A program made the translations under genes and the position numbers. This document shows, piece after piece, positions 2,954 through 4,075 of a DNA stretch of 21,763 bases. The DNA is taken from positions 1 through 21,763 of IMG/VR virus record IMGVR_UViG_3300008113_001074; one strand, given 5' to 3'. Below the pieces are notes generated by a model that searched no databases, had not been told where the DNA came from, and saw only the letters and a program-made list of their open reading frames with translations. This DNA is from a virus. How positions within the stretch are numbered: the stretch's first letter is position 1; every line of letters starts with the position of its first letter.

Positions 2954-4075
2954 TTAATCCTCATTATTTAAGTTTTTATTAACCATTTCAATTTTTTTAC
3001 CTATCCATGCCATTACAGGAACAGCCATAGAATTACCAAGAGATTTATATCTAGGGCCATCAGGTGACTCATCAGACTTGCGCCAAGGAATGTTAGTGTA
3101 ATTATCGCAGAAGCCCTGAAGACGCTCACATTCTACAGGGGTAAGTCTACGCACAGCCATACTAGATGCATAGACTGCCGCTACTTGGTTTGTTACCTCG
3201 CTTGATTGTGGCGATCTACTTGGATCATTAGCTGCCGTTAATGTAGGAGCGACTACTGATTGCATAACTTTAGGGCCTGTATGCGTTGGGCCTGCCATAT
3301 CTGCTGTTAATGTTGCAGATGTATCTCCTTGCAATGAATAAACTAAGTCAGTAGGACTTTTATAATCTCTTGCGCTTATGGTAGATGCTATTGGTGCAGT
3401 TCCATATTCACCAGAAGATTGTCGATCAAATGTAGCTACACATTCTTCGTGGTTGTTGCGACTGATTCCAAAGCGTGCCGCAATAGTTCCGGCAACTTCT
3501 TCCCCCTGCTTTCTGCTCGGCGCAGTATCCCTGCGCAAGCTTTCTGGCTCAAAAAGAACTTCTGCGGCAGGTTTCCAGTCTCCAAAGTATCCGACAACGA
3601 ACACACGTCTGCGTCTTTGGGCCACTCCGAAATACTGAGCGTCAAGCACTCGATATGCGAACCCATACCCGAGTTCTGCCACCGCCCCGAGGAAGGAACC
3701 AAAGTCCCTTCCGCCACCTGAACTGAGGACACCCGGCACGTTTTCCCATACGAACCACTTTGGTCTAAACTTGTTAAGAATTCCGCAATAGGTGAGCGCA
3801 AGGTTTCCTCTTGGATCATCAAGTCCTTTTCTGAGTCCGGCAACGGAAAATGATTGGCAAGGTGTTCCACCGACCAGAAGTTCAACTGCTTGGTTTCCAA
3901 AATCCCACTCCTTAAATTTAGTCATATCTCCTACATTTTGCACATCAGGATAATGATGAGCCAATACAGCAGATGGAAAAGGTTCAATCTCTGAATATGC
4001 AACAGCTTTCCAACCTAGTGGATGCCATGCTACTGTTGCTGCCTCTATGCCGCTACAAACAGATAGATAATTCAT
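2954..4075 (-). CDS. DNA (cytosine-5) methyltransferase
   Basis: This 373-residue enzyme transfers a methyl group from SAM to C5 of cytosine. Motifs in order are SVCSGIEAATVAW (motif I, 5-17), GGTPCQSFS (motif IV, catalytic Cys73), VWENVPGVLS (motif VI, 109-118), AQYFGVAQRRRRVF (motif VIII, 146-159), a variable target-recognition region, RRLTPVECERLQGF (motif IX, about 309-322) and GNSMAVPV (motif X, 347-354). TPCQ replaces the commoner PPCQ, which is tolerated in phage members. No cognate restriction enzyme is seen, so it is probably an orphan protecting phage DNA. Its ATG overlaps the helicase stop by 4 nt. The 3440-3900 stretch looks more GC-rich than its surroundings and contains a second long frame. 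Target sequence cannot be read from the protein. Confidence 0.95.
   Translation of the reverse strand: MNYLSVCSGIEAATVAWHPLGWKAVAYSEIEPFPSAVLAHHYPDVQNVGDMTKFKEWDFGNQAVELLVGGTPCQSFSVAGLRKGLDDPRGNLALTYCGILNKFRPKWFVWENVPGVLSSGGGRDFGSFLGAVAELGYGFAYRVLDAQYFGVAQRRRRVFVVGYFGDWKPAAEVLFEPESLRRDTAPSRKQGEEVAGTIAARFGISRNNHEECVATFDRQSSGEYGTAPIASTISARDYKSPTDLVYSLQGDTSATLTADMAGPTHTGPKVMQSVVAPTLTAANDPSRSPQSSEVTNQVAAVYASSMAVRRLTPVECERLQGFCDNYTNIPWRKSDESPDGPRYKSLGNSMAVPVMAWIGKKIEMVNKNLNNED
3436..3900 (-). CDS. Candidate overprinted protein inside the cytosine methyltransferase gene
   Basis: A same-strand alternative frame of 154 codons lies wholly inside the methylase (over its residues about 59-213). It starts at TTG 3900, and AAGGAG (3908-3913) lies exactly 7 nt upstream, an ideal ribosome site. 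Motifs include SEWPKDADVCSLSDTLETGN and ACAGILRRAESRGKKLPELL, ending with a plausible helix. I recall similar frames annotated as hypothetical proteins in other phage methylase loci, but cannot verify this here. Caution: the region overlies the conserved methylase motifs IV to VIII, so the alternative frame would look conserved even if untranslated. Confidence 0.35.
   Translation of the reverse strand: METKQLNFWSVEHLANHFPLPDSEKDLMIQEETLRSPIAEFLTSLDQSGSYGKTCRVSSVQVAEGTLVPSSGRWQNSGMGSHIECLTLSISEWPKDADVCSLSDTLETGNLPQKFFLSQKACAGILRRAESRGKKLPELLRHALESVATTTKNV

Follow-up and report, generated by a model that had tools for sequence, protein, structure and literature searches.

Two-part C5-cytosine methyltransferases

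The coding sequence for the beta polypeptide of the C5 methylase M.EcoHK31I lies inside that for alpha, in a different reading frame. A passage in PMC3404938 describes M.EcoHK31I (YGGCCR) as an enzyme of one large and one small polypeptide, places motif IX on the small one, and cites a paper (Lee, 1995) whose title states that two proteins are required for M.EcoHK31I. M.AquI also consists of two polypeptides; the same passage has the split fall behind motif VIII and assigns motifs IX-X to the small subunit. In Streptococcus phage MM1, a pair is known by annotation. The record (DQ113772, orf13/orf14) carries the names 'C5 methyltransferase alpha subunit' and 'beta subunit', and beta (1911-2336 of locus L004) lies within alpha (1760-2917), in its +1 frame.

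The arrangement of MM1 is shared by a methylase gene in the window, the whole 21.8-kb stretch of a virus record analyzed here. Its nested protein family and the MM1-type (Firmicute) family align with a probability of 99.4% (hhalign), and tblastn to MM1 yielded 1e-8. The window thus harbors a homologue of MM1 orf14 that likewise sits inside alpha, in the +1 frame. MM1 alpha is about 27% identical to the window alpha, and the MM1/Firmicute form of beta lacks the basic GILRRAxxRGK helix found in the window clade. Relative to the passage on M.EcoHK31I, the distribution of motifs differs: motif IX (RRLTPVECERLQGF) lies on alpha here, while beta has a segment that follows motif VIII. The locus was not classed as a member of the M.EcoHK31I type because motif IX stays on alpha, the comparison being one with its description in that passage. 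A beta with motif IX in the manner of M.EcoHK31I was considered and rejected, as the beta profile showed no similarity to the C-terminal part of alpha. M.AquI, as described there, differs as well, since the window alpha keeps both motifs IX and X. The window alpha/beta pair probably works like M.EcoHK31I and like the annotated MM1 pair.

The methylase gene and its nested frame

The methylase and the nested ORF are located on the minus strand. The gene for the C5-cytosine DNA methyltransferase (alpha, 373 aa) occupies 2954-4075 (PF00145, E=7e-53; TIGR00675, 5.8e-53), with a DnaB-like helicase and an O-like/primosomal gene as neighbors in a replication module. PF00145 spans the whole chain, and motifs I, IV (PCQ), VI (ENV), VIII (QxRxR; GVAQRRRRVFVVG, 3590-3628), IX (3110-3151) and X are all in frame. 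The AlphaFold2 model of the catalytic core has pLDDT values mostly above 90, and Foldseek matched it to M.HhaI and M.HaeIII. By motifs and by fold, alpha is a C5-cytosine methyltransferase. Canonical members commonly have, within the same chain, a DILE..KYxxS segment that lies past motif VIII and ahead of the target-recognition domain; it is outside the formal definition of C5 methyltransferases and is absent from alpha. The PHROG family phrog_864, named DNA primase, also matches the methylase (2954-4075) at 1.6e-59 over profile positions 653-863; going by this match, it is a fused or misnamed family. A search of the 21.8-kb window against Rfam gave no matches.

The nested gene (beta, 154 aa) occupies 3436-3900 in the +1 frame of alpha, as an open reading frame with support from permutation, conservation and periodicity. 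The preliminary description had reported a 154-codon second frame on the strand of the methylase, with an exact AAGGAG 7 nt before a TTG start, and both elements were located inside the C5 methylase gene. The TTG lies at 3898-3900 and the Shine-Dalgarno sequence at 3908-3913, where it spells alpha codons K55 and E56. A TGA at 3922-3924 (alpha codon 51) closes the +1 frame shortly before the start and bounds the nested ORF; a +1-frame stop at this codon is kept in 94% of the homologues. Homologues have TTG, ATG or GTG at alpha codon 58-59, at or adjacent to the same site, usually with AAGGAG 7 nt upstream, and this spacing is 7 in most of them. Codon usage fits the signal: the alpha codons that spell AAGGAG are AAG in 77/87 and GAG in 77/88 homologues, compared with 37% and 44% outside the overlap. 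Copies from bacterial genomes begin at this site too, often behind a Shine-Dalgarno sequence that is weaker. In the Firmicute clade the signal is less regular, some match being found upstream of a start in 52/70 genes.

The nested ORF has a GC content of 51.8%, the rest of the methylase gene 40.8%. The rise noted in the preliminary description is therefore real, and the overlap is richer in GC than the rest in 90/97 homologues. Of the two causes proposed there, dual coding explains the rise, whereas recent transfer is unnecessary because dual coding yields a GC rise in almost all homologues.

Stop avoidance in the +1 frame

Synonymous-codon permutation of the window gene gave a mean of 6.2 stops in the +1 frame, compared with one observed, which is the terminator; none of 300 permutations was as low. 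The open run of the +1 frame was likewise longer than under codon permutation (p=0.003). To extend the count, 80 viral loci were fetched with the methylase protein only, so that the choice of loci does not favor the second frame. The 66 distinct sequences, the window's included, contained 57 stops in the +1 frame of the overlap against 350 expected from synonymous permutation within genes, counts that come from related sequences and not from independent trials, a kinship shared by the +2 frames and the control methylases. Most of the 57 are the natural terminator that closes the region. The +2 frame of the same overlap contained 574 stops. In a distant Firmicute-phage clade, fetched with the MM1 methylase (70 distinct genes), 42 stops were counted in the +1 frame against 490 expected, and 31 of the 42 belong to one disrupted gene (L551). 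Outside the clade, 41 C5 methylases of bacterial genomes showed no stop avoidance in the +1 frame (261 versus 280 expected). Stops in the nested frame of homologues, on which the preliminary description had made its reading depend, are thus avoided beyond chance in both clades.

Constraint on the nested protein

A profile of the nested protein was built from 41 bacterial-genome copies and scored on 43 viral genes. The mean score was 230.6 bits, compared with 71.0 bits on synonymous permutations, and none of 20 permutations per gene matched the observed score. As the permuted genes still reach 71.0 bits, a passive shadow makes up about one third of the signal, and selection is taken to account for the remainder. 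At alpha codons 176-203, most nested residues are conserved at 0.9-1.0 in 97 homologues (FLSxKACxGILRRAEKRGKxLP), those of alpha mostly at 0.3-0.6. Ahead of the nested gene, nucleotide diversity at the three alpha codon positions is 0.231/0.171/0.587, and at codons 176-203 it is 0.506/0.294/0.222; the free third position has therefore moved to the +1 frame. Synonymous variation of alpha is reduced in the overlap, where codon identity at shared residues is 0.46-0.90, compared with 0.31-0.46 outside. A constraint purely at the nucleotide or RNA level was ruled out, because the third positions of the +1 codons vary freely.

The preliminary description had allowed that the frame might be a shadow of conserved methylase motifs. 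A chance ORF of this kind, produced by motifs and codon bias and making no protein, could account for the passive part of the profile score. It is contradicted by the permutation and periodicity results and by the control methylases outside the clade, which have the same motifs and no such frame, and its probability is close to negligible. The alternative put forward there, a nested phage protein, is supported by the stops, the reduced synonymous variation and the better conserved +1 residues at codons 176-203. With stop avoidance and a protein constraint in the second frame that go beyond what the first frame imposes, the nested ORF is, on the sequence evidence, a genuine and strongly conserved overlapping gene.

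Nature of the nested protein

The conserved C-terminal domain of the nested protein comprises residues 98-150 (3451-3609). Its most conserved part reads CSLSDxLExG.xPQ+FFLSxKACxGILRR in the family, and the core of the window protein (DVCSLSDTLETGNLPQKFFLS, 3547-3609) starts over the end of alpha motif VIII in the +1 frame. In canonical C5 methylases, a similar segment is part of the methylase chain itself, directly past motif VIII, e.g. VGDILDNQVDEKYTISDKLWAGHQRRK or DILD..VDEKYTIS. The Firmicute nested profile matched this segment in frame 0 of at least 10 control methylases, 21-54 residues past QxRxR; the reversed profile gave no matches among the control methylases. Conversely, a profile of the canonical segment had 81 matches to nested proteins at E<0.01 (best 6e-9) and none to the alpha chains in either clade at this threshold. 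Comparison of profiles by hhalign yielded 96% for the Firmicute and 85% for the window clade with a canonical subset picked for its KY..S motif, and less than 0.4% with reversed columns. Against the unselected canonical set, the window clade reached a probability of 58%, and the match of this clade to the canonical segment by single-sequence profile was weaker (mean 1.8 bits). Judged by these profiles, the nested C-terminal core is homologous to the segment that separates motif VIII from the target-recognition domain in canonical enzymes. Together with the lack of a match in alpha, this identifies the nested gene as the carrier of a segment displaced from the methylase and no longer present in alpha.

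Helices of the nested protein were assigned to residues 102-108, 119-132 and 138-152. The AlphaFold model of beta is confident only at about residues 111-150, which are helical, while the N-terminal ~95 residues are predicted to be disordered. In phages with inserts in alpha, the N-terminal part of beta is cut off. Neither by sequence nor by fold did the nested protein give a convincing match in the PDB. The PHROG family phrog_16143 ('DNA methyltransferase', 139 positions) matches it at 1.5e-12 and also matches 81/87 homologues; the entry provides the family name and mentions neither nesting nor a displaced segment. Keyword searches of the literature found no description of the nested family.

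Distribution and descent

At 167/167 viral and database loci, the nested frame lay in +1 relative to a C5 methylase. The same was true of 166/166 additional ORFs, taken from gut, actinobacterial and other viruses. Bacterial genomes of many phyla had 78 of 81 nested ORFs in +1, the other three belonging to split or frameshifted methylases. The offset also confirmed the nested frame in P1-like dmt and in the archaeal virus Drs3. Across whole genomes, the frame was present in each in-clade methylase and missing from the rest. A tree of motifs I-VIII placed the carriers on one side of a single branch with a support of 86/88, although this tree is not independent of the nested gene because part of the alignment overlaps it. 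The result is consistent with a single origin of the nested-gene methylases.

Split and interrupted methylases were observed among the relatives. Fourteen methylases are split in two, some of them near-copies and with sequencing error possible, and in 12 of the 14 the C-terminal half (motifs IX-X) is in the +1 frame, the frame of the nested gene (L005, L168, L184, L211, L234, L391, L392, L399, L400, L403, L415 and L472). A single ORF of L234 holds both the nested protein and motifs IX-X. L472 (844-2645), from Mycobacterium phage Thibault, has its methylase gene interrupted by an HNH endonuclease gene, and the nested protein keeps its conserved C-terminal part intact as gp104. The dmt gene of the P1-like phage RCS47 (L003) contains an intein-like insertion at about methylase residue 80, after the catalytic PC of motif IV. 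The insertion removes the 5' half of the nested frame, and the nested C-terminal domain is still open. The annotation of P1 includes dmt-A and dmt-B (PMC10695390). One in-frame stop breaks the methylase frame of L178 (2295-3564), with the nested ORF open across it; error or decay are possible causes.

Two-subunit model

The overlapping gene is proposed to encode a small second subunit (beta) of a phage C5-cytosine methyltransferase, with a probability of roughly three in four. Ribosomes would initiate internally on the methylase mRNA, using the conserved AAGGAG/TTG site, and read the +1 frame. Beta would most likely bind alpha and supply in trans the segment past motif VIII, i.e. the entry of the target-recognition domain, completing the DNA-recognition side, since the beta domain is homologous to a segment that alpha lacks. 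Methylase activity would need beta. The recognition region of alpha, residues 191-283, is predicted by AlphaFold with low confidence, which fits a missing partner and could also reflect alignment depth. The confident alpha core, the weak region 191-283 and the helical C-terminus of beta are in keeping with the model and not decisive. The in-clade methylase of phage SpSL1 modifies the phage genome by methylation at a defined motif (PMC6755750); the nested ORF is open in its gene. This shows that carriers of the nested gene are active enzymes and says nothing on the need for beta.

The nested protein may be real and have a job of its own, as a regulator, an anti-restriction factor or in another phage function, merely sharing the DNA of the methylase. 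Coding constraint alone does not reveal the role of a protein, and the C-terminal helices lack a clear fold match in the PDB. Such a function is nevertheless unlikely, given that no free-standing nested protein was found among several hundred loci, that all members of one methylase clade have the gene and methylases beyond this clade lack it, and that the core of the protein is homologous to a segment of methylases absent from alpha. Programmed +1 frameshifting near motif VIII, in place of internal initiation, would yield motifs I-VIII joined to the canonical segment. Motif VIII followed by the DILE segment is indeed the order of canonical enzymes, and the +1 position of the C-terminal half in 12/14 split methylases points the same way. 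Yet the conserved start at codon 58-59, from which the +1 frame stays open and under constraint, lies 100 codons ahead of the segment, and neither this nor a conserved AAGGAG is required for a shift near motif VIII, which leaves frameshifting improbable, more so than a separate function. A beta subunit made by internal initiation is the preferred reading. Its extension to the whole group is put forward with less assurance, though still as the favored view: a large clade of C5 methylases from phages and prophages, including P1-like dmt and that of an archaeal virus, would be obligately two-part, the segment having shifted once, long ago, into the +1 frame and having been produced ever since as a nested subunit of its own.

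Implications

The alpha/beta naming of MM1 and the PHROG family for the nested protein are already known. The breadth of the arrangement, the proof of dual coding from sequence and the recognition of a displaced enzyme segment in the nested part appear to be new. Dual coding on the same strand is unusually wide and old here, extending over phages and prophages of many bacterial phyla, and over part of the nested length the second frame is more constrained than the first. If the two-subunit model is true, one stretch of DNA encodes, in two frames, two interlocking parts of one enzyme, and the system offers a direct test of the splitting of an enzyme into interleaved frames. Many phage C5 methylases would then be annotated with half of their parts, the second subunit being mostly missed. 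Studies on orphan methylases that clone alpha from a gene recoded with synonymous codons would destroy the second subunit unnoticed.
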